This document shows, piece by piece, positions 1,858-51,043 of a DNA stretch of 64,000 nt (its first letter is position 1; every line of letters begins with the position of its first letter). The position numbers were made by a program, and so were the translations under genes. This DNA is from Rubrivivax sp. (GTDB lineage: Bacteria > Pseudomonadota > Gammaproteobacteria > Burkholderiales > Burkholderiaceae_C), in the NCBI GenBank assembly GCA_027484825.1, contig JAIXSE010000021.1:248001-312000 (forward strand), written 5' to 3'. The notes under the pieces are model-generated. The model was not told the DNA's origin. It saw only the letters and a program-made list of their open reading frames with translations, and ran no database searches.

Positions 1858-2088
1858 TCAGCGACACTCACAGACGCTATTCGCCTCTTTGTAGACGTCC
1901 CTGGATGTGGCTGGGCCCTTGTATACAAGTTCACCGCGCTTGTTCAGAACCGCACACTTTTGCGCGCAGGCTTCATGTGGCGACGGCAGGCCGCTGGTGA
2001 CATACCCAACAATCAAGGGCACAGCAACAAAACCAGCAAATACCAAAGAGACCACCACTCCTCGGGATAGCTTCATAAGCTTCTTCAT
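1858..2088 (-). CDS. Small exported or membrane-anchored cysteine-rich protein
   Basis: Read from the ATG at 2088 the product has 76 residues: a basic start (MKKLMKLSRG), one hydrophobic segment (about residues 10-32) and a short tail with four cysteines (CAQKC and CEC). That pattern fits a small protein anchored in or exported through the inner membrane, with disulfides or metal binding in the tail. An upstream extension to 2202 is open but runs through AT-rich, non-coding-like sequence, so the internal ATG is preferred. Function unknown. Confidence 0.5.
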   Translation of the reverse strand: MKKLMKLSRGVVVSLVFAGFVAVPLIVGYVTSGLPSPHEACAQKCAVLNKRGELVYKGPATSRDVYKEANSVCECR

Positions 2089-2266
2089 CCCGTAGGTTTC
2101 CCCAGGGGCGACGGGTGTGTTGAAATGTGCAGCAACGGTCAATACGCTCAGAGCACAAGTAGTCCAAAATTTGAGAATCCAGAATCCCCAAATTATCCCC
2201 ACAGCAGAAAAGGCAGCCCAAGTGACTTCTCTGCACTTTGTGGCTTATTAAAAGGAAGATAGTTGG

Positions 2267-2554
2267 ATGGGTAATAATAATATTTGGACAAAACTGCTGA
2301 GATTATTCGCTGCACTACTGTGCATTTCTGTGGCAATATTCCTCTCAGTTCCAAGAGATTTGGTGATAAAAAAAGCTTTGGCTACAACGTCTGCATTTTT
2401 GGCAGTCATTTGCATTATTCTGGCAAAATTGGCGAGGAAATTCGAGGCCGAAAATGAAATTCAACTTGTAAATCAAGATATTAGACGACATCCAATTGAT
2501 GCCGCCCATCCTGATGAACATATTGACTTCAGTCATGATGTCCACGCACATTGA
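2267..2554 (+). CDS. Hypothetical two-helix membrane protein, low GC
   Basis: A 95-residue protein preceded by a strong ribosome binding site (AAGGAAG, 7 nt before ATG). Two hydrophobic segments (about residues 9-27 and 37-53) are followed by a charged, histidine-rich tail ending in HAH. Base composition is far more AT-rich than the flanking chromosome, which suggests a foreign origin. Its 3' end overlaps the next gene. I recognise no family. Confidence 0.55.
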   Translation: MGNNNIWTKLLRLFAALLCISVAIFLSVPRDLVIKKALATTSAFLAVICIILAKLARKFEAENEIQLVNQDIRRHPIDAAHPDEHIDFSHDVHAH

Positions 2555-2978
2555 CGAGAGGTGCCAGGGCAGCCTTTATAATTGTTTGCTGGCAATATTG
2601 ATATTTTTTTCCGGCTGTTCCAGATCGATCAATAGCGAAGCTCCAAGCACTCTGGCGACAGGCGTCACGGTAGTGAACTCCGATGTTTGTAATGCGAGTG
2701 ACCTGGATAGCAATCTGAAGATAGCAAAGAAGGACGGACTCTACATCGTCGACTTGTCAGCCGAGCTGGGATGTGAAGTCAACTCGTTGCGGCCGTTTGT
2801 CTCCCCTCTCATCGACCATAAGGCAACCTTGGTGCTATCGTCTGGCGGCGTGAGCGGATCGTCCGGGTGCGAATGCTCTCGAAAAGTCCAGATATCCATA
2901 AAAGATCGATTGGACGCCGGAGACACGCTGTATGTTTTAAACGGCGATGTGGTAATCGGCCATGTAACAGTCCCCTAG
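2535..2978 (+). CDS. Putative lipoprotein of unknown function, low GC
   Basis: Starting at one of two adjacent ATGs (2535/2538), the product is about 147 residues. A hydrophobic stretch ends in FFSGCSRS, a plausible lipobox. The mature part has a CECSRK motif and ends in a short strand-rich segment (GDTLYVLNGDVVIGHVTVP). The n-region is acidic (HIDERCQ), atypical for a signal peptide, so a downstream TTG start closer to the hydrophobic core is possible. It overlaps the preceding gene by about 20 nt, suggesting coupled translation. Function unknown. Confidence 0.45.
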   Translation: MMSTHIDERCQGSLYNCLLAILIFFSGCSRSINSEAPSTLATGVTVVNSDVCNASDLDSNLKIAKKDGLYIVDLSAELGCEVNSLRPFVSPLIDHKATLVLSSGGVSGSSGCECSRKVQISIKDRLDAGDTLYVLNGDVVIGHVTVP

Positions 2979-3024
2979 TGCGAAGCACATGAACGCTGTG
3001 CCGGGTTTTGGTGGTTGTAGAGCA

Positions 3025-3582
3025 ATGAAAATTTCCAGATTAAAAGCAGGTCGGATTTTAATCGTCCTCATCGCTTCAGTAATTCTGAATTCTGCTAAGG
3101 CAGATGCACCTGGCTTGCCCCCGGCTACCATACGCGTAAAAAGTTCGGATGGCCGCATTAGTGTGGTATCAATTCCAGGGCGCAACACTATTGCCTACAG
3201 CGTTGATGGGAAGCGTCTGTGGATTGTGCCAGGATGGCACGAGCAATTTTTGGTTCCAAACAATGGGATCGATCTAATTGTTCTATACGGTGGCCTAAAT
3301 TTAATACCAAAGAATTATTCAGAGAATTTGGTTTTAATGACGGTTTGGCGGAGGGGTAGGATATTCCGTCGCTTTCGACTTCGCGAAATTGTTGCTGAAC
3401 CATCTACCTTGACTGAAACTGCGTCGCACTATTTTTGGGGTAATGTGCTAACCTTGCGGAATAATAAAGATATTATTATCAACCGGTCTGATGGAAAGCA
3501 AATTTCTTTAAATTATGAAAACGGGCGTATTGAAATTGTTGGCAATTGGATGCCCATTGATGCTGGCGCTCGGTTTCAGTAA
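3025..3582 (+). CDS. Hypothetical exported protein, low GC
   Basis: The 185-residue product has a classic signal peptide: basic start (MKISRLKAGR), hydrophobic core, and probable cleavage after AKA (SAKA/DAPG). The mature part is rich in beta-strand segments and basic residues (VWRRGRIFRRFRLRE). An upstream ATG at 2989 would add 12 residues with no signal-like character, so 3025 is preferred. It belongs to the same AT-richer patch as the two genes before it. I recognise no family. Confidence 0.5.
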   Translation: MKISRLKAGRILIVLIASVILNSAKADAPGLPPATIRVKSSDGRISVVSIPGRNTIAYSVDGKRLWIVPGWHEQFLVPNNGIDLIVLYGGLNLIPKNYSENLVLMTVWRRGRIFRRFRLREIVAEPSTLTETASHYFWGNVLTLRNNKDIIINRSDGKQISLNYENGRIEIVGNWMPIDAGARFQ

Positions 3583-3654
3583 AAAGTTCATGCCCTTAAG
3601 TCTGGGGCGCAATTTCTGCGAGTTATTGATTGCCTCGCGTGAGTGAACCGCTCC

Positions 3655-3677
3655 GGCCTTCGCGGAGGCCTTTCGGT
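3655..3677 (+). terminator. Probable intrinsic terminator
   Basis: GGCCT and AGGCC flank a 6-nt loop, followed by TTTCGGTTTA. It lies 70 nt beyond the stop of the exported-protein gene and before the convergent 3712-4902 gene. The stem is only 5 bp and the T-run is interrupted, so this is a moderate call. Confidence 0.4.
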
Positions 3678-3711
3678 TTAAGTCCGACGGTCGCGGTCTG
3701 ACCACTGACGC

Positions 3712-4902
3712 TCAATCAGACCCAGACGCCTGCCCCTCATCCCCAGGAAGCGGCTGCCCCCCGGTCAACGCCATTGCTTGCCAGTCCTGCCTCCCCGGAT
3801 CGATATCCCGAAACGTCCGCGCCAGCGCCCACTGCGCCTGCTGCCGCACCGACGGATCCGTAATCCGATGCACCAAATCCACCGCCTCCCGCGGTGACTG
3901 CCTTGCCAGTTCATCCTGAGTCGCATGCTGCACGATGGACGCATCCAGCGCGGGGGTGGCGCCCTGTGCGCGTATCCATTCCCGAGCCGCAAGCCCGTCA
4001 AGCGCCAACCAACGATTGAGCGATTCAGTCAGCAGCGGCCGGCCGATCGACGGGGGCAGGGTGCTGGCAAACACGGTGGCGGACCGGGCGTCCTGATGGG
4101 CCCATCGGTCGTTGACCACGGCCAGCAGGTCTGCACCGCCAGCGCCGGGTCGAGCGCCGTCGGCAGGGCCTGCGGCATTTCCTGACGCAGCGCCTGCCGC
4201 AGTCCAATGTGCAGCCCCATAGGCCGCCCGATGGGCTTCCCAATTCGCCGCCCAGTTAGCCGCCTGCGTGGGCGCCGTCTCAGTCCACCGCACGAGCGTC
4301 GCATCCATCCAGGCGCTGCGCAGCGCAAGCTCCAGGCCCGTTGCCTGATCCAGCCCCTGAAGCATCACATCGAACATCCGGCGCTGCCAAAGTGGCTCCA
4401 GCAGCGGATCCACCAGCGCCTGCGCCCAGTCCGGCCGCTCTGACGCCCATTGCAAGGCCAGGCGCCAAGCCCCTGACGGGTCCTTGGCGAGCATCGACAT
4501 CAACATCGCCTGGCACTGCGCCAGGGACAAGGCCGCTGTGCGGCCCGCCGAGAGCGGCGCGTCGTCCGCCTGCGCGGTGGCCGTCGCCAGCTGCTGCCAG
4601 GGGTCCTGGTAGGCGCTGCCAGTCGCCGGGCTGTTGGACGCGGAGGCATCCTCATCCGCGCCTCCCCACATCCACACAAGGGCGGACACACTCACCATCA
4701 CCACCGCCGCAACGCGCCATCCCATCCGCTGCCACCCCGGGCCGTTTTGCGCGGACTCATCCGTCGTGGGCAGGAAGAAACTGCGGCTTGGTCGGCTGTG
4801 CGGCCGCCCTGACCGTTGGGGCTGAGCAGTCTTGCCGCTCTGACCCAAGCTGCCGAGAGGCGGCTGCTGTTCGAGGCGATCCAGGTTGAAGCGTTCGCTC
4901 AT
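3712..4902 (-). CDS. Single-pass membrane protein with Ala/Trp-rich helical region, unknown
   Basis: Read from the ATG at 4902 (AGGA 4 nt upstream) the product has 396 residues. An N-terminal region of about 55 polar residues is followed by one transmembrane helix (GWRVAAVVMVSVSALVWMW, roughly residues 60-80), then a low-complexity linker and a long helical domain. The centre is unusually rich in Ala and Trp (AANWAANWEAHRAAYGAAHW), suggesting degenerate helical repeats. The topology is that of a bitopic inner-membrane protein with a periplasmic alpha-solenoid. An ATG at 4926 would add 8 residues but lacks a ribosome binding site. Function unknown. Confidence 0.55.
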   Translation of the reverse strand: MSERFNLDRLEQQPPLGSLGQSGKTAQPQRSGRPHSRPSRSFFLPTTDESAQNGPGWQRMGWRVAAVVMVSVSALVWMWGGADEDASASNSPATGSAYQDPWQQLATATAQADDAPLSAGRTAALSLAQCQAMLMSMLAKDPSGAWRLALQWASERPDWAQALVDPLLEPLWQRRMFDVMLQGLDQATGLELALRSAWMDATLVRWTETAPTQAANWAANWEAHRAAYGAAHWTAAGAASGNAAGPADGARPGAGGADLLAVVNDRWAHQDARSATVFASTLPPSIGRPLLTESLNRWLALDGLAAREWIRAQGATPALDASIVQHATQDELARQSPREAVDLVHRITDPSVRQQAQWALARTFRDIDPGRQDWQAMALTGGQPLPGDEGQASGSD

Positions 4903-43558: not shown

Positions 43559-43619
43559 GGGGAAGGGCGCGTGCAAGGCGGTCACTGGCGTGGCCCCGAT
43601 GATAAGACCTCCAACGCCC

Positions 43620-46583
43620 CTAGCAGCACCGCGCGGTCTGCGCCCCCGTCTGCATATCGACCGTCGCGATGCGGCCTTGCGAATCGAACACCAGCCACTG
43701 CTGGCCCTGGGCGCGCACCCGCAAACGGGCATCCGCGGGCCAGTGCCAGGTCATTTTGCAGGGGCCGTTGATCTGGTGCAGCCGGATCAGACGGCGCGGT
43801 GCGCCGTTTTCCTCCACCGGGGCGCCCAGGCTGGCCATGAGCAGCCACTGGCCATCGGCCTTGAGCACCTGCATGCCCGATCGGTCGAAGCTGCCCAGCC
43901 GCATCGGGTGGCCCGCCAGTGTGCACAGCCAGGACTCGCTGCTGCCGGGCGACGCCGGCCGGAACTCCAGCACGCCGCGTCCCCCCGCGAGCAGTCGCGG
44001 TGAGCCTTCGGTTTCCGCCGTTCGAAGCTGCTCGGCGTTCAAGGGCGGCAGCTCGTCGCGCGATTGCAGGCGTCGCTGGGGGAGCGTGTAGCTCCACTGC
44101 TGGGCGTTGGGGCTCGGCTGCATCACCCAGGTTTCCTGCTGCATCCCGCGCGCGATGTGCAGCACCGGGCCCGGCAGGTCGGCCACCTGCCAAAGTACCT
44201 CGCGCAGACCTGGCGCCTGCACATCCAGCACCTGCACCCGGGTGCCCACCGCCACCGTCCAGCCGCCGCCATCGAAGCGGTCGGCAAAGGCGTCCAGTCG
44301 GTGCAGGCCCAGATCCATCGCGCGGCGATGCATCAGGTCCAGGCGCGTCACCCGCCAGACCGCATCCCGCCTGGCCAAGGCCAGCGCGCTGCAACCATCT
44401 TCCGCCACCACCAGGACCTCGGCCGGCACCGGGAAGTGGTCGAGACGGCGACCGACGGCGTCCAGGCGGACAGCACCGGCCTCACCCAGGGCCACCAGCA
44501 GTTCATCGTGGGCCATGCACACGGCGTCCAGCACCGGATGCAGGCCCGGCTCAGGCACCCAGCCGGTCAGCGGGCGTGTCTGCTGCGCCAGCGGGGGCAG
44601 GGCCGGGGCGAGCGCATGGAAGCTGGCGCTCGGGAGGTCCGCCTTCAATGCGGCGTCCTGCGTCAGGGCCACCAGTTGGCCCAGTCGCTGCGCCGACAGC
44701 GACGGGCCGCTGACGGACTGGTCCGCCAGGGTCGGGCCGGCCAGCATCAGCGCCAGCCGTCGCACGGCGGGCGTGGGCTCGCCGGGCAGACGCAGCAGTT
44801 CGTCCACCAGGGCCGCGCGGGCGCGCTGGGCGGACGGATCGCAGTGCAGGGCGGTGATCTCCGGCACACGTGCATCGAGCGTGTCCGGCCAGCCCAGTGC
44901 GCGCCAAGCCAGGGCACGGGTGCTGACCAGCCCGCCGACCTGCTCGGCCGACTCGATCCAGGACTGCACCGTCTCGCGTGCATCGGTGCACAGCCACAGC
45001 ACCCGCGCCGCATCCAGACAGCGGCCTTGGTCGGCCAGGGTCTCGGCCCAGCGCTGCCGCAGGCGTCGTCCGGCCTCGGGCCAGCGAGACTCCAGCAGGG
45101 TGACCGCCTCTTCCCAGGCACCGTCGCGACGTGCGACGCGTTCGGCGCGTTGCCAGTCTCCCGCCAGGGCATAGAGCCGGATGATGGCGGCGGCGGGCAT
45201 GTCCCAGCCGAAGGCCAGCTCAGCGGCCTGCTGGAAGCGCTGGTGACGCTCCAGCAGTTCCAGCGCATGGGCCCGGTCGTGCAACAGCTCGGCATGCACG
45301 AACACCGCTTCGTCGATCCGGCCCTTGGCTTCCAGGTCCTGGGCGGTGCGCCGGTACAGCTCGCGCAGGTGCTGCTCGAGGTCCGGGGACAGGTGGATGC
45401 TGGCGGATGGGCCAGTGCCATTCGCGCTCAGATGCAGGTCCTGGCGACGACCCGGAGCGCCGAAGGCCTGCCCGAGCGATCCGGTTTGGCCGCCCAGGGG
45501 AAGCGCGTGGCGCAAGGCCTCATTCAGGTCGCCGTCGTCGAACATGCGCAGCATCTTGCGCAGGTAGGCGGACTGTCTCATGCTCAACGCATGGCTGAGG
45601 CCGGAGGCCAGCGCCGCGCGGGCCAACCAGTTGCGCCACTGCTCCGGAAGGATGGGAGCGCGCTTCAGGCGTTCGCGCAGACCGTCGCCGGGTCTCTGGC
45701 CGGCGGATCCTGTTCCGGAGGGGGCGGCGCTTTGCCCGGCGGACCCGCTCGATCGGGACTGCCCAGCCCGGCGGGCGATGCCCCCAAAGCCTCCCAACAA
45801 GCCAAGCAGACCGCCAACGGCGGCCGCACTCAGGCTCAAGGGCGCGGCGGCGGAGGCAGCACCGGCGATCAGCGCCGCCACGACCAAGCCCCCGGCCGTC
45901 ACTGCGGCCGCAGCCGCCGTGCCGGAGAGCAGTCGGCGATGGCGGTCGCCGATGGCCGCGGTCGGGGTTCGGGCGCCATCCTTCCCCCGCCGCCGCTGTG
46001 CTGCCTGCTGGAGCGTTTCCAACAAGGCGCGTGTCTCTGGGGCCATCGACTGCGGCACCGACGGCCCGAGGACCTTCGCCAAGGGCCGGGCTTCGTCCAT
46101 CACCAGGATGCGCTCCGGCTCCGGCTGACGCAGGTCCAGCGGTTCGATCCGGGGCAGGTCCACGGCCAGCCAGCGGGACACGTCCTCGACCTGGGCGGCG
46201 GACAGATGCAGGGCGTGCGCCTGCCCCGCCACCACCAGCCAGGCGTCCGCCAGCGGCAGCGTCGCCAAGCGTTCCGAGCTGACGTCGGCGCTGCAAAGCA
46301 CGCCGGACAGACGTTGCAGCGGCCAGGCGGTGAGGCCGGCGCAGTCTAGGGTCACCGGCGCGGGCAGGCGCAGGAGCAGGCCGTCGCTGAAGCGATGGGC
46401 GGTCGCGCCCGGGGTCCAGTGACGCAGCACGTCACGTCGCTCGGCCAGCGGCGACAGCCAGCCCGCAGGCCACCACAAGGCGGACACCGGACGACGTCCT
46501 GCCAGCAGTGGACGTGGGAAGGGCGAGGCGCTTGCGTGCATGTCGCGGCTCACTGCAAGCGAATCGGGCAGGGCGGCGGTCAT
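43620..46583 (-). CDS. bpX6-like protein of a MoxR-vWA-beta-propeller ternary system
   Basis: A 987-residue multidomain protein. Residues about 25-165 (VSALWWPAGWLSPLAERRDV, SDGLLLRLPAPV) resemble the bpX6 N-terminal domain as I recall it. Residues about 220-275 form one or two membrane-like Ala/Gly-rich segments (AGGLVVAALIAGAASAAAPL; VGGLLGLLGGFGGIARRAG). About 300-600 is helical repeats (RRTAQDLEAKGRIDEAVFVH), and about 640-987 is strand-rich with propeller-like blades (WTVAVGTRVQVLD, WLLMASLGAP). It is the last gene of the four-gene operon, overlapping its neighbour by 4 nt. Enzyme motifs are not seen. It probably acts as the sensor or membrane-linked scaffold. Confidence 0.68.
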   Translation of the reverse strand: MTAALPDSLAVSRDMHASASPFPRPLLAGRRPVSALWWPAGWLSPLAERRDVLRHWTPGATAHRFSDGLLLRLPAPVTLDCAGLTAWPLQRLSGVLCSADVSSERLATLPLADAWLVVAGQAHALHLSAAQVEDVSRWLAVDLPRIEPLDLRQPEPERILVMDEARPLAKVLGPSVPQSMAPETRALLETLQQAAQRRRGKDGARTPTAAIGDRHRRLLSGTAAAAAVTAGGLVVAALIAGAASAAAPLSLSAAAVGGLLGLLGGFGGIARRAGQSRSSGSAGQSAAPSGTGSAGQRPGDGLRERLKRAPILPEQWRNWLARAALASGLSHALSMRQSAYLRKMLRMFDDGDLNEALRHALPLGGQTGSLGQAFGAPGRRQDLHLSANGTGPSASIHLSPDLEQHLRELYRRTAQDLEAKGRIDEAVFVHAELLHDRAHALELLERHQRFQQAAELAFGWDMPAAAIIRLYALAGDWQRAERVARRDGAWEEAVTLLESRWPEAGRRLRQRWAETLADQGRCLDAARVLWLCTDARETVQSWIESAEQVGGLVSTRALAWRALGWPDTLDARVPEITALHCDPSAQRARAALVDELLRLPGEPTPAVRRLALMLAGPTLADQSVSGPSLSAQRLGQLVALTQDAALKADLPSASFHALAPALPPLAQQTRPLTGWVPEPGLHPVLDAVCMAHDELLVALGEAGAVRLDAVGRRLDHFPVPAEVLVVAEDGCSALALARRDAVWRVTRLDLMHRRAMDLGLHRLDAFADRFDGGGWTVAVGTRVQVLDVQAPGLREVLWQVADLPGPVLHIARGMQQETWVMQPSPNAQQWSYTLPQRRLQSRDELPPLNAEQLRTAETEGSPRLLAGGRGVLEFRPASPGSSESWLCTLAGHPMRLGSFDRSGMQVLKADGQWLLMASLGAPVEENGAPRRLIRLHQINGPCKMTWHWPADARLRVRAQGQQWLVFDSQGRIATVDMQTGAQTARCC

Positions 46584-48598
46584 GACGGCATCTCCGGCGT
46601 CAGTGAGAGCGCCCCCTGAGCGGGTCCTGGGGGTGCATCGTGTTGCGAGTTGTCCTGGTCTGGCGCCTCTTCATACGTCAGTCGGGCGACGACATCGCCG
46701 CTGCTGCCTTCGATGAAATGCAGCGACCGATCTTCGGTGATGATCGCCACGCGCCCGCGCCCCGGGCACACGACGGCCTGCGCAATGCTGGTGGGGGTAT
46801 TGAAGACCGGCGTGCGGCTGCCGGCCGAAGCCAGGCTCAGGGTCTTGCGGTCGGTGCTCATCACCAGCAGTCCAGCCTGACGCTCTTCATTGCGACCCCT
46901 GCACACCAGCCCGACCGCCCGCTGGCCGGCCGACAATTCGACCTCCATGCGCCGGCGCGACGCGGGGCCCGCCGTTGACATCAAGCCTTGCGGCCCGAAG
47001 TCCGATTCGACGATCCAGGTCTGGCCTTGTCCGGACTGGCGGGTTTGCGCGGCATACGCCGTCGGCACCACGCCGATGTGGCCCGGCTGCAGACTGAAAA
47101 ACAGCGGCGTCAGGCCGGAGGCCAGCGGTGTCACCGAAAGCAGATGCACAGCCTCGGGCAATGGGACCAACGCCTGACCGTCCCATTTCAGCTGCTGGAG
47201 CCACAGGGCACCCTCCATCAGATAGACGTAGAACAGGGTGCCGTTGCTGCCAGGCACTGCCGCCATGACGCGCTCGGCGACCTGTGCGGGCCCGACCGAC
47301 TTGTGGCCGCCTTTGTGCCAGGCCAGGAGCCGTTTTCGCTCATCGACCACCAGCACGCAATGCGGTCCTTTGCGGCCGCCCTCCAGCACCAGCAGGGGCA
47401 TGGCGGCGGCCGTGGCGATGGCCATGGACATCGCGTCCGAGGACGGTTTGCCGGTCGTGAGCCAGCCGGCGACCTGCCAGAAGTGCAGGGATGACTCATC
47501 CACCAGCAAGCCTTGCACCACCCGGTTGTTCAACTGAGCGGCGATCAGGGCGCGGCCAGCGGCCCACTGTTGTTCGTGGACATGGAGCCGGCCGCCACCG
47601 CCTGGCGCGGTGCCAGCGCTGCGTTTTTTGGGCGTCATGAGCAGCACGGCCCGGTCCTCCAGCGGGAAGGCGGCGACCTGGTTGCCGTCGGCGCTGATCA
47701 GGGGCCGCCGCGTCAGCGACAACTGACGGTGCGTGATGGCGAGCGCTGGCGCGCCCTGGGTCGACTCGGCCAGCTTCGGCGCCGCCTTGGCAAACTGACC
47801 TCGCAACAAAGCGCCCAGATGAATGTCTGCCGGCAGGGGCAGGTCGCATTGGCGGCTGCTGCGGGGCGTCACCAAGGTGGCATGAAGCATCGGGCCGGAC
47901 CATGCCGGGCGCAGCTCAAGACGCCGTTCGTTGGGCAGAGGGGCGTCCGCCTGAGGGCCCGGCGCGGCGCCGATCCACCAGCATTCTGGAGCGGAGGTGG
48001 GGGGCGGCGCCGGGTGCTCGGCCGCCAGGGCGTCCCGCCAGAGGGCGATGGCGGTTGCGTCGCCCGGCTTCAGCGCGCGGCCTTTGAGCAGCTTTTTGAG
48101 TGACTGGGCGCCATTCATGGTGTGAAGCTGCCCGGGCTGTTGCAGCAAGCCCCAGCGCAGCGTCCCGCCCAACTGCTCAGCCCGGCGGGCGAGCAGGATC
48201 AGCACCGCCAGATGGGCCACCCGAGGGGCTCCCAGCTGATGCGGGCCGGCGTCAAAAATGGCCACCATGTGCCGCTCGGACGGCGTCGCCCGCAGGCTGG
48301 GCGCGAGGAACAGATGCTCGGACGAGGCGGCACGGCGCAGGAACTCCAGCGGCATCTCGTCGGCCAGCAGCCATTCGCTCATCAGCAGGCGCTCGTAGCG
48401 ACCTTGGGTGCGCAAATCTCCCAGCCCGTCCGGTTCGGACTGCTGGCGACCCGTCGAGGCCGGAGCCGGCCCCGCCAGTTGGGCGAGGCGTCGCACCACA
48501 TCCCCCAGCGCTTCGGCCAGTTCGGCATCAAACCAGCCGAGCCAGGTGTTCCAGGGTTGCAGCGCGGCCGGGAGGCGGGATTGGGGCGGGCGACTCAT
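46580..48598 (-). CDS. vWA-like and beta-propeller protein of the MoxR ternary system
   Basis: The 672-residue product begins with a region (about 60-200) like a degenerate von Willebrand A domain: LLMSEWLLADEMPLEFLRR, then VAIFDAGPHQLGAPRVAHLAVLILLARRAE where an active vWA would have DxSxS. The rest is strand-rich propeller-like repeats with recurring WLTTGKPSSDAMSMAIATAAA-type and RVAIITEDRSLHFIEG motifs. Such proteins partner MoxR ATPases. ATGA overlaps on both sides (48598 with the upstream gene, 46580 with the downstream gene) show tight coupling. The loss of the metal-site serines suggests scaffold use. Confidence 0.65.
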   Translation of the reverse strand: MSRPPQSRLPAALQPWNTWLGWFDAELAEALGDVVRRLAQLAGPAPASTGRQQSEPDGLGDLRTQGRYERLLMSEWLLADEMPLEFLRRAASSEHLFLAPSLRATPSERHMVAIFDAGPHQLGAPRVAHLAVLILLARRAEQLGGTLRWGLLQQPGQLHTMNGAQSLKKLLKGRALKPGDATAIALWRDALAAEHPAPPPTSAPECWWIGAAPGPQADAPLPNERRLELRPAWSGPMLHATLVTPRSSRQCDLPLPADIHLGALLRGQFAKAAPKLAESTQGAPALAITHRQLSLTRRPLISADGNQVAAFPLEDRAVLLMTPKKRSAGTAPGGGGRLHVHEQQWAAGRALIAAQLNNRVVQGLLVDESSLHFWQVAGWLTTGKPSSDAMSMAIATAAAMPLLVLEGGRKGPHCVLVVDERKRLLAWHKGGHKSVGPAQVAERVMAAVPGSNGTLFYVYLMEGALWLQQLKWDGQALVPLPEAVHLLSVTPLASGLTPLFFSLQPGHIGVVPTAYAAQTRQSGQGQTWIVESDFGPQGLMSTAGPASRRRMEVELSAGQRAVGLVCRGRNEERQAGLLVMSTDRKTLSLASAGSRTPVFNTPTSIAQAVVCPGRGRVAIITEDRSLHFIEGSSGDVVARLTYEEAPDQDNSQHDAPPGPAQGALSLTPEMPS

Positions 48599-49086
48599 CC
48601 GGCCGTCTCCACGGGCAGTGCGGGCCGTGGGGGAAGGCGAAGCTGCTGGCGTGCGCTTGCCAGGACCGCATCAGTGGCCGGCTGTGCGCCCGCCAGCGGC
48701 ATCACCGCCTCGGGCTTCGGCCACAGCAGCAGCGGACCGGCCCCCATGGCCTGCGCCAGGGCTTGGGCGATCAGGTCCTGCGGCAGATCGGGGTGGCGGT
48801 GCGTTGGCAGCCACAGGGACGGGGCGACCGCACTGGGGGCGCCATACCGCACGCCATCGACCCAGGGTAGGTCCGCGGACGCACCCAGCACGATCAGCCA
48901 GCCGGCCGCCGCCACGATGCTCAGCCGTTCCCGCTGGGCGTCGGGCAAGGCCTGCAGGCGAGTCAGCAGGGCATGCACGGTGGAATCCCCGTGGGCCACA
49001 ACCGCTTGCGGCGGGGGCGCTTCCGGTGTCGGCAGCCAGGACCATCGCAGGGGCGCGATGCTGGCCTCGCCCTCCGTGGTGCTCAT
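48595..49086 (-). CDS. bpX5-like small protein of the MoxR ternary system
   Basis: A 163-residue soluble protein. Features include IVAAAGWLIVLGASADLPWVDGVRYG, with an LPWVDG core, and APSLWLPTHRHPDLPQDLIAQAL, which match my recollection of the bpX5 domain seen only next to MoxR genes. No catalytic motif or membrane segment is visible. It overlaps the MoxR gene stop (ATGA) and the vWA-like gene start. Function unknown; it may be an adaptor between ATPase and propeller proteins. Confidence 0.6.
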   Translation of the reverse strand: MSTTEGEASIAPLRWSWLPTPEAPPPQAVVAHGDSTVHALLTRLQALPDAQRERLSIVAAAGWLIVLGASADLPWVDGVRYGAPSAVAPSLWLPTHRHPDLPQDLIAQALAQAMGAGPLLLWPKPEAVMPLAGAQPATDAVLASARQQLRLPPRPALPVETAG

Positions 49087-50276
49087 GCCAGTTGGGCGGG
49101 TTGTGGCTGGCTTTCCGCGCCGCGCAGGCGCATGCGCAACTGGGCGCGGGCTTCGGCCAGTTCGTCCGGCAATTCGTCCGGCGCAAAGTTGGCGTCGATC
49201 TCGCGCAGCACGGCTTCAATGCGGGGCGCTGTGGCGCTGGCGTTGGGCGCAGCACCGTCCTGCGTCGGGGAGCCAGCCTCCGTGGACGACAGGTCCGCCA
49301 GGCAGCTCCGCGCCGCGTCCAGCAAACGCGCGATGCGTGAGCGGGGCTGCAGGGTCGCCGCTTCAACGGCATAACGCAGGTGCGGATGCTCGGCCAGCGC
49401 GAAGAGGTCCTTCAGCGCGTCCCGGGCCTGCTGTTGTGCGGCCTGGTTGGGCAGCACGTAGAGTAGGGGCCACAGGTCTGCGGCCCGGGCCTCCAGGCGT
49501 CCGCCCAGCACCGTGGCGGCAGCGACCAGACGCTGCGCCTTCACGATCCGCCGGTCGGACAGGGCCAGGCCAGCAGCGCGTAATTGACGCACCGCATCCG
49601 CCAGGGCGGGACGGACGGTGTCCATCTTGACCTGGGGCAGATGCTGGGACAGCAGATCCAGCTGTGCGAGGGCGCCGCCGTCTTCGGTCGGCGCAAAGTC
49701 CGACTGCCAGCCGCCCTTGAGCAGGGTTTCGAGCTGATCGTCTGGCACCGGCTCCACAAAGGCATGCAGCAGGAAACGATCGGCAAAAGCTGCCAGCGAT
49801 TCTTCCTCCGGCAAGCCGTTGGCCGCCGCGACACAGACCCTCAGCGGACAGGCCAGCAGGGTGTGACCGCGCCGGAAGCGCCGCTCGTTCAGCACGCCCA
49901 GCAAGGTGTTGAGCACGGCGGTGGAGCCGAGGAAGACTTCGTCAAGAAACGCGACTTCCGCCTCCGGCAGCATGCCGGTGACATCCGTCTCAACCGTGCC
50001 TTCCCGCAGCTTGCGCAGGTCCACCGGACCAAACAGCTCGGACGGCTCGGTGAAGCGGCCCAGCAGGTATTCGAAGTAACGTCCGCCCAGGGCCTGGGCC
50101 ACGCGCCGCACGACCGCGCTTTTGCCGGTGCCGGGAGGCCCGACCACCAGCAGGTGTTCCTGAGCCACCGCGGCCAGCACGATCAGCTCGGCAAGCGGTT
50201 CACGGCCGATCAGGCCCGTGGTGGAGGCATGGATGGCGGCGCGCAGCTGGCGCGCAGCGTCGGCGAGAGCGGACAT
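49083..50276 (-). CDS. MoxR-family AAA+ ATPase
   Basis: From the ATG at 50276 the 397-residue product has Walker A GPPGTGKSAVVRR (K52), the RavA/MoxR stretch YFEYLLGRFTEPSELFGPVD, Walker B AEVAFLDEVFLGS, sensor-1 VCVAAANGLPEEE and arginine finger region AFADRFLLHAFVEP. MoxR ATPases are chaperone-like motors that usually work with vWA proteins to assemble or activate targets. It leads the four-gene operon. Extension to 50336 has no similarity. Confidence 0.9.
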   Translation of the reverse strand: MSALADAARQLRAAIHASTTGLIGREPLAELIVLAAVAQEHLLVVGPPGTGKSAVVRRVAQALGGRYFEYLLGRFTEPSELFGPVDLRKLREGTVETDVTGMLPEAEVAFLDEVFLGSTAVLNTLLGVLNERRFRRGHTLLACPLRVCVAAANGLPEEESLAAFADRFLLHAFVEPVPDDQLETLLKGGWQSDFAPTEDGGALAQLDLLSQHLPQVKMDTVRPALADAVRQLRAAGLALSDRRIVKAQRLVAAATVLGGRLEARAADLWPLLYVLPNQAAQQQARDALKDLFALAEHPHLRYAVEAATLQPRSRIARLLDAARSCLADLSSTEAGSPTQDGAAPNASATAPRIEAVLREIDANFAPDELPDELAEARAQLRMRLRGAESQPQPAQLA

Positions 50277-50472
50277 GCGGTGAAGGGGGCCTGATGGGTC
50301 CCGTGTAGTTGTGAAGCGGCTCCGGCACGCCCGCACCGAGGCGTGTCCTCCCAGATCTCGTCTGGATTATGGAGCCGTCCTACACCGCGACGCGCCGACT
50401 CCCCCAATAGCGGGAGCGGAGTTCGAGACAGAAGTCCCGTGGAGCCCTTGGTGGAAGCCGCTGGTCTTCCGG

Positions 50473-50514
50473 TTCAGCTGGCAACCTTCAGCTGGCAACC
50501 TTCAGCTGGCAACC
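50473..50514. repeat. Three perfect 14-bp tandem repeats next to the nusB stop
   Basis: Unit TTCAGCTGGCAACC occurs three times without gaps, ending 1 nt before the nusB stop codon (minus strand). It lies in the 239-nt gap between nusB and the moxR operon. CAGCTG at its core is palindromic. It may mark a recent duplication or a folded RNA end. Confidence 0.9.
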
Positions 50515-50515
50515 T

Positions 50516-51043
50516 TTAGCCGCGGGCGGCCTTGACTTCCACCGGACGCAGGTCTTCCGCAGCGCGGTCCAGCACGCCGTTGACGTACTTGTGCCCGTCG
50601 GTGCCGCCAAAGGACTTGGCCAGCTCCACCGCTTCGTTGATGGCGACCTTGTAGGGGATGTCGATGCAGTGCTTGAGCTCGTAGGCGCCCAGCATCAGGA
50701 TGGCATGCTCGATGGGCGACAGCTCGGTCGTCTTGCGGTCCGCGTGGCGGGCCAGCACTTCGTCCAGTGAGGCGGCATCTTCGACAGCGCCGGCGAACAG
50801 CTTGTCGTAGTGGCCGCGGTCGCTCTTGTCGAAGCCTTCCTGCTCACGGGTGTGGGCATCGATGACGCCCAGGTCGTCGCCGGTCAGCAGCCATTGATAG
50901 ACGCTCTGCAGGGCGTGCTCACGGGCGCGGCGGCGGGCCGACTTGACGGCCGGGCGCTTGGCCGCAGGCTTGCCGCCGGCTTTGCCACCGGATGACGGGC
51001 CGGACGGGGCGCCGGTGGAGGGGAGGTTGTCCTTGGAGGTCAC
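50516..51043 (-). CDS. nusB: Transcription antitermination factor NusB
   Basis: The 175-residue product binds BoxA RNA with NusE/S10 in rRNA antitermination. After an N-terminal low-complexity basic tail of about 35 residues, the all-helical fold is clear: [61 protein letters not shown]-type ending and [10 protein letters not shown]. The start is GTG, overlapping the ribH stop as GTGA, fitting the usual ribH-nusB pair. Confidence 0.95.

Follow-up and report, generated by a model that had tools for sequence, protein, structure and literature searches.

We analysed an operon in a 64,000-nucleotide (nt) stretch of DNA from Rubrivivax sp., hereafter called the window. Its four genes, all intact, lie on the minus strand within 43620-50276 and encode a MoxR AAA+ ATPase, a bpX5 protein, a vWA-like adaptor with a predicted C-terminal beta-propeller, and a bpX6 protein. 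The start of each gene overlaps the preceding stop by 4 nt (49083-49086, 48595-48598 and 46580-46583). The operon almost certainly belongs to the beta-propeller-containing MoxR-vWA ternary systems.

Genes, protein families and class of the operon

Pfam families were matched by three of the four proteins, all far over the curated cut-offs: bpMoxR by the ATPase (E 3.4e-87; 291 bits against PF20030, cut-off 27), bpX5 by the 163-amino-acid (aa) protein (E 2.2e-43) and bpX6 by the 987-aa protein (E 1.6e-44). The MoxR protein has an intact Walker A (GPPGTGKS) and Walker B (FLDEVF), and its nearest solved structure is RavA (E 6.7e-37). Its NCBIfam matches were all sub-threshold; the RavA model was the best of them, with 141.3 bits against a cut-off of 681, so the protein does not qualify as a RavA equivalog. 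TAKS occurs in the P-loop of 72 of the 76 aligned MoxR sequences, a set that includes the window protein, which itself lacks the GxxxTAKS form. The bpX5 core LPWVDGVxY...LWLPT is kept across a consensus of 74 sequences. A relationship between the bpX5 and bpX6 domains was rejected, with an hhalign probability of 0.8%. MoxR alone of the four proteins matched PHROGs, as ATPase and other families. The promoter scan found none, terminator-like sites numbered 1 against 2.6 expected, and the tRNA scan found none.

Loci in relatives were fetched with the adaptor alone as query, and 80 of at least 89 confirmed loci, from named genomes, were kept; their genes were called with our own codon-usage script. 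The order MoxR-bpX5-vWA-bpX6 was complete in 70 of the 80 loci; the other ten had only some of the genes, arranged in that order. Of these ten, five lie on contigs no longer than 5 kb, two are cut off at the edge of a contig, and in three, all actinobacterial (L087, L090 and L092), bpX5 was not found above threshold. Since three of the four proteins have strong curated family matches and the same order recurs in 70 loci, the four-gene unit is not a product of chance.

Contig titles of the relatives were mainly Pseudomonadota and Myxococcota, with several Actinomycetota. One or two contigs each were titled Acidobacteriota, Armatimonadota (our phylum assignment) and Eremiobacterota; some of these are bins and may hold stray contigs. 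The first four copies found (G008, G283, G269 and G313, the last on the same contig as L038) each carry all four genes. G288 was rejected as a carrier: its bpX6 match, at 22 bits, is below the cut-off, and none of the four genes was found in the region. Matches were split between frames in up to four of the 80 loci (L041, L055, L072 and L088), which come from Pseudomonas cedrina, Pseudomonas sp. TH15, Pseudomonas sp. KNUC1026 and Xanthomonas phaseoli; this suggests that the copies are broken or contain sequencing errors. The tree of the system (57 rows, six of them in no group, with some groups mixing named families and group codes) follows bacterial families. Because it needs 14 changes where 13 is the minimum, movement seems to have occurred mostly within families, with much loss.

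For the adaptor, no Pfam or NCBIfam family matched at E up to 1, and vWA families matched none of the 62 rows of its alignment, the window included. Aligning the adaptor core with the CoxE and VWA_2 profiles by hhalign gave probabilities below 1%, against 97% for the positive control, and the best match of the core profile to solved structures had an E of 0.75. In the AlphaFold model, the domain has an alpha/beta topology, with D116 ending the strand where the aspartate of the metal ion-dependent adhesion site (MIDAS) would be expected. The MIDAS of vWA co-chaperones of the NorD, CoxE and ViaA kind (DxSxS plus a distal Asp) is absent, and the motif D116-x-G118-P119-x-Q121-L-G123-x-x-R126 occupies its place. 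Among 80 rows, six of them gapped, the D is kept in 71, the G in 73, the P in 70 and the Q in 73; a Trp stands in 75 of 80, in the strand that we assigned to the distal Asp. The label "vWA-like" thus rests on predicted topology and operon position, as no sequence family was matched. The C-terminal propeller is predicted by the model and backed by structural matches. Foldseek and VIA were run on full models and the lists were filled by propellers, so that the vWA-like, bpX6 and solenoid parts were barely probed. The propellers of the adaptor and the bpX6 protein were rejected as detectable homologues by profile (hhalign probability 3.8%).

The bpX6 protein shows the layout of its class: an N-terminal globular domain, a predicted membrane span, and helical and propeller parts. 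Its membrane segment, its solenoid and both propellers of the system are predictions from two AlphaFold single-chain models and from structural matches of the propellers; the bpX6 profile had no match among solved structures. A hydrophobic segment (19-aa window, Kyte-Doolittle value above 1.6) lies in the linker of 42 of 59 bpX6 proteins. With a looser cut-off it was found in 46, and 30 had two segments. Mean flank charges of the paired segments were +0.73 and +2.83, against -0.57 for the loop, and such positive flanks with a negative loop fit a topology in which both soluble ends are cytoplasmic.

These results can be set against an earlier reading of the window made from the letters alone (the original prediction). 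Its four minus-strand genes joined by 4-nt overlaps agree with our coordinates and translations, and its first gene is indeed an intact MoxR AAA+ ATPase. Of the partner families that it had named, bpX5 and bpX6 were borne out by Pfam and the propeller by the model, and the vWA label found no sequence support in 62 rows or by hhalign. It had proposed profile searches and a survey of gene order across Burkholderiales, and had named hits to unrelated families or a lack of conservation as outcomes that would count against it. Neither outcome occurred: bpMoxR, bpX5 and bpX6 were found, and the order is conserved well beyond Burkholderiales.

The description of the operon as the best candidate for an undescribed system was too strong. 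As the original prediction also held, the class had been predicted by comparative genomics (Kaur et al. 2020, PMC7159879, subsystem 4). According to that paper, the vWA protein ends in a beta-propeller, and the third component has an N-terminal globular domain, a membrane span, tetratricopeptide repeats and a propeller; the propeller class was called enigmatic because no conventional effector module was found. The name bpX does not occur in its main text and is Pfam's own. In a 2022 paper on Pseudomonas syringae (PMC9677677), a table groups ravA, bpX5, an unnamed gene and bpX6 within one plastic region of clade 2b-a. The operon is apparently an additional, untested member of a class known since 2020. 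The remark that biochemistry is essentially lacking agrees with our survey, in which no experimental study of a propeller-type MoxR-vWA system was found among the open-access papers listed.

Table 1. Features of the operon, its proteins and the surrounding segment
Feature	Position	Strand	Basis or remark
MoxR AAA+ ATPase, RavA-like bpMoxR type, 397 aa	49083-50276	-	Pfam bpMoxR, nearest structure RavA, motifs
bpX5 protein, 163 aa	48595-49086	-	Pfam bpX5; consensus of 74 sequences
vWA-like adaptor with predicted C-terminal beta-propeller, 672 aa	46580-48598	-	Predicted topology, operon position
Adaptor N-part, helical	about 11-91		Residues of the 672-aa protein
Adaptor alpha/beta domain	about 97-265		Residues of the 672-aa protein
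Adaptor propeller	about 285-642		Residues of the 672-aa protein
bpX6 protein with hydrophobic stretch, predicted alpha-solenoid and beta-propeller, 987 aa	43620-46583	-	Pfam bpX6, model
bpX6 alpha/beta domain	24-188		Residues of the 987-aa protein
Hydrophobic stretch	about 218-270		Residues of the 987-aa protein
Alpha-solenoid	about 315-650		Residues of the 987-aa protein
C-terminal beta-propeller	about 672-986		Residues of the 987-aa protein
Segment without counterpart in close congeners	43612-50517	.	Between aminotransferase leader and nusB stop
14-bp repeat, 3.4 copies, 97% match	50473-50520	.	Right edge of the segment, at the nusB end

Divergence within the adaptor and bpX6 proteins

To compare the parts of the proteins, we used alignments of 62 rows for the adaptor and 59 for the bpX6 protein, excluding near-copies and short alignments. 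Both leave out an array from Massilia rubra, L072 and L088 (split frames), the fragment L041, and L038 (the contig of L015); a further six proteins, which aligned only in part (L079, L087, L089, L090, L092 and L096), are missing from that of the bpX6 protein. Mean pairwise identity in the bpX6 protein was 0.48 for the solenoid, 0.37 for the bpX6 domain, 0.33 for the C-terminal propeller and 0.19, over fewer pairs, for the linker. In the adaptor, it was 0.55 for the N-part, 0.44 for the vWA-like part and 0.25 for the propeller. When MoxR identity was binned, the propellers remained under the bpX6 domain and the linker remained lowest. All 59 aligned proteins retain the bpX6 domain.

The ratio of nonsynonymous to synonymous substitution rates (dN/dS) was computed for the MoxR, adaptor and bpX6 genes, with bpX5 and the linker outside its scope. 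Over 14 close pairs (13 for the core), the median was 0.043 for MoxR, 0.10 for the solenoid, 0.125 for the vWA-like core, 0.146 for the bpX6 domain, 0.17 for the C-terminal propeller and 0.21 for the adaptor propeller. Every pair and region that could be computed gave a value below 0.5. By this measure, the three genes are under purifying selection. Judged by sequence identity, the predicted propellers, not the bpX6 domain, are the most divergent folded parts, and the membrane linker diverges still more. From the identities together with dN/dS, the globular bpX6 domain is not hypervariable within the bpX5/bpX6 subtype. Part of the region called variable in 2020 varies here too, given the linker identity; that divergence is more simply explained by lost constraint in a disordered stretch.

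The Massilia rubra array (L073:7141-15371) consists of five adaptor-like genes in tandem. The cores of genes 4 and 5 are 81-82% identical and their propellers 34-35%, with the drop near the end of the core.

Rarity, genomic sites and neighbouring genes

The system is rare. Counting its own genome each time, the bpX6 family passed its cut-off in 4 of the 300 genomes from the order, and the adaptor-core profile was found, always in one copy, in 4 of 399 genomes of the order and 4 of 369 of the class. In the search of relatives, only the window's own genome and G008, out of 60, had bpX5; both belong to the genus, and bpX5 was not found in the other 14 of its 16 genomes.

In G003, a close congener whose aminotransferase is 97% identical, nusB and the aminotransferase gene are about 160 bp apart, against about 7 kb in the window. 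Homology to G003 stops at 43611 and restarts at 50518, so that about 6.9 kb, comprising the four genes plus a leader (about 240 bp), has either been gained in the window or been lost from G003. The extent proposed originally, 43620-50276, holds for the genes; the segment that congeners lack is slightly larger. Across the genus, nusB lies within a short stretch upstream of the aminotransferase in 7 of the 16 genomes. In eight others, with longer stretches, other genes are present, and the four slot proteins scanned were a permease, a histidine kinase, a pullulanase and a GH15-type hydrolase; nusB was not found at this slot in G004. In G011 the slot (L186:9028-10954) holds, beside a permease, open reading frames (ORFs) that we take to be transposase-like, and the slot therefore accepts insertions.

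The G008 copy lies at a different site from the window copy, and both are compact inserts. Between the flanks of the G008 copy lie about 340 bp in G009, 130 bp in G002 and 106 bp in G015. The flanks match less directly in the remaining congeners. Their distance is about 0.9 kb in G004, 2.2 kb in G014 and 7.5 kb in G005. A piece is inverted in G006, G010 and G013; the flanks are on different contigs or distant in G000, G001, G003, G011 and G012, and one flank has no usable match in G007. Since these are compact four-gene units with clean empty sites, the whole system should be removable or movable as one piece. In G005, the slot used by the G008 copy is occupied by another four-ORF cassette (L184:3640-9678, C11), which encodes a weakly alpha/beta-hydrolase-like protein, a small protein with hydrophobic segments, an AAA_16-like ATPase and a 759-aa protein of no known family; it had no PADLOC match below E 0.04. 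Short dispersed repeats of about 50-60 bp lie near the G008 copy (L012, about 1016-1074 and 2090-2144) and recur many times in several congeneric genomes. By our own reading, they resemble repetitive extragenic palindromic (REP) or miniature inverted-repeat transposable elements (MITE). Elsewhere in the window, positions 2001-4000 have a GC content of 0.49, against about 0.67 around them, and contain small ORFs.

Neighbours were scanned in 56 of the 80 loci, taking up to two genes upstream and one downstream and proteins of up to 700 aa, a few of them some kb away. The outer set comprised 144 of 146 listed proteins, from 53 of the 56 loci, and one protein is in both sets. Counting families at a threshold of 1e-5, not proteins, PADLOC gave 66 among the 144 adjacent proteins and 77 among the 144 outer ones; the families of adjacent proteins had at most two members each among the matches listed. 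A defence-island setting is unsupported by this comparison; because the outer genes reach no further than about 10 kb, these loci could still lie in a very large island. Within the operon, only MoxR had PADLOC matches at E up to 1, all weak and of ATPase type (best 21.5 bits). Among the first 25 of 148 Pfam families, the commonest in adjacent proteins were transporters, cell-wall enzymes and regulators. The widest flanking cluster, a LysR-like regulator family by our own reading, occurred in 17 of the 80 loci, followed by clusters in 9 and 8; none is common to most loci. The adaptor profile found no relative in viral contigs, nor did the bpX6 protein find one among 50,697 phage records; among plasmids, the adaptor had a single match, which covers 20% of the query and lies on an Embleya plasmid of 5.7 Mb. 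These searches give no support to phages, viral contigs or plasmids as a main route.

Proposed mechanism, alternatives and known relatives

We tentatively favour, at somewhat short of even confidence, a membrane-anchored AAA+ remodelling machine. Through its hydrophobic stretch, the bpX6 protein would be anchored to the inner membrane, and its two soluble ends would lie in the cytoplasm. The MoxR hexamer would grip the conserved helical and vWA-like core of the adaptor, and ATP hydrolysis would turn or pull the adaptor, so that the solenoid-propeller protein is remodelled. Recognition would then fall to the adaptor propeller, and the output to the bpX6/membrane end. Triggering is probably conditional; among single roles, an anti-invader (conflict) trigger is somewhat likelier than any other. 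As support for this machine we count the families, co-inheritance, architecture, linker hydrophobicity, the gradient of constraint, the Massilia rubra array, the rare insert-like distribution and the analogues. In the twisting model of NorQ/NorD, the ring twists the vWA adaptor (PMC13036017), and the related pair RavA-ViaA acts at the inner membrane (PMC9489729).

Several points weigh against the remodelling machine. Faster change in the propellers can reflect weaker constraint, not recognition, and the linker with its hydrophobic helices is less conserved than either propeller. The pair with like cores and unlike propellers comes from one array, in an assembly whose title gives coverage 6; in this array the core is distant in gene 1 and cannot be aligned in gene 2, and the deviation of the pair from the trend is almost matched by that of an ordinary pair of loci, L041-L045 (z -3.4 versus -3.1). 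The vWA assignment is without sequence support, the domain fold being taken from a full-length model, and the modelling covers two single chains, no complex. Even the looser test shows no hydrophobic linker segment in 13 of 59 bpX6 proteins. There was also no excess of defence-model matches beside the system relative to outer genes within about 10 kb.

A more specific version, which we regard as doubtful, would be a MIDAS-free MoxR sensor machine with an exchangeable propeller as recognition end. Here metal-dependent binding would have been replaced by a near-invariant site (D116, G118, P119, Q121, G123, R126 and W207) and the propeller diversified, as seen in one Massilia tandem array, with the bpX6/membrane end again as output.

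The 2020 proposal of a conflict system (PMC7159879) assigns the parts differently: the N-terminal domain and membrane span of the bpX6 protein would be a variable effector, deployed on an invader by the MoxR-vWA switch, with the propellers only holding proteins together. The patchy occurrence of bpX5 in the genus (2 of 16, own genome included) as compact inserts at two sites, the linker with the membrane span as the least conserved stretch, and the G005 slot with its other cassette carrying an AAA-type ATPase are in keeping with it. However, the bpX6 domain is kept throughout, is more conserved than both propellers and has a low dN/dS; PADLOC families are fewer beside the system than further out, the tree is bound to bacterial families apart from its six ungrouped rows, and no relative was found with the adaptor profile in viral contigs or with the bpX6 protein in phage records. 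We consider the proposal in this form unlikely. As to a conflict role as such, it is plausible: rarity, insert-like units and the alternative cassette in the same slot favour it weakly, and it is weakened by the neighbour test and the family-bound tree.

It is rather unlikely that the operon encodes an accessory envelope or enzyme chaperone like RavA-ViaA or NorQ-NorD, which would mature or rearrange a host membrane complex with no conflict role. The closeness of MoxR to RavA among solved proteins, the predicted membrane anchoring, purifying selection in the three tested genes, inheritance largely within families and the ordinary chromosomal neighbours among the commonest Pfam families listed all speak for such a chaperone. 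Against it, no constant neighbour offers itself as a client, the system is rare (three other genomes in each of the 399 and 369 surveyed) and bpX5 was not found in most of the genus, and neither ViaA nor NorD resembles the two partners that bear propellers. Passenger DNA, in the sense of a cassette that brings its host no benefit while it spreads and decays, could account for the split, possibly broken, frames and for the many congeners in which bpX5 was not found; with dN/dS well under 1 in three genes and a segment filled by four intact overlapping genes, we regard it as very improbable.

Three observations sharpen the open questions about this class: the lack of a MIDAS, the rapid divergence of the propellers and the cleanly bounded, insert-like units. 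The remodelling machine would place the recognition end in the propellers, a different part of the system, which makes the question of sensor or effector testable with the two congeneric copies.

With the class of PMC7159879, the operon shares MoxR, an adaptor ending in a propeller, the layout of the third component and an extra linked gene; that class includes a subset without one or both MIDAS aspartates, as in this adaptor. It differs in that the adaptor propeller spans about 360 predicted residues, whereas the paper gives about four blades; in a bpX6 globular domain that is not hypervariable within the subtype; and in a P-loop reading GPPGTGKS, not the frequent TAKS form. The contigs titled Actinomycetota, Acidobacteriota, Armatimonadota and Eremiobacterota, some possibly stray bin contigs, exceed the phyla named there. 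All four genes also make up the Pseudomonas syringae row (PMC9677677), which gives them in the order seen here and within a single region of genomic plasticity; they are listed as clade-specific genes, without functional analysis in the passages concerned. In NorQ-NorD, a MoxR ring drives a vWA-bearing adaptor on a membrane target (PMC13036017). NorD has a MIDAS (DxSxS-T-D), which is replaced in this adaptor. ViaA is not known to have a propeller or solenoid partner, unlike the system described here. The RavA-type MoxR core is common to this system and RavA-ViaA of E. coli, which acts at the inner membrane (PMC9489729). In VMAP ternary systems (PMC10907252), the C-terminal part of the vWA protein was proposed as the sensor, as we propose for the propeller; there, C-type lectin domains are diversified by retroelements, whereas here the corresponding parts are propellers.

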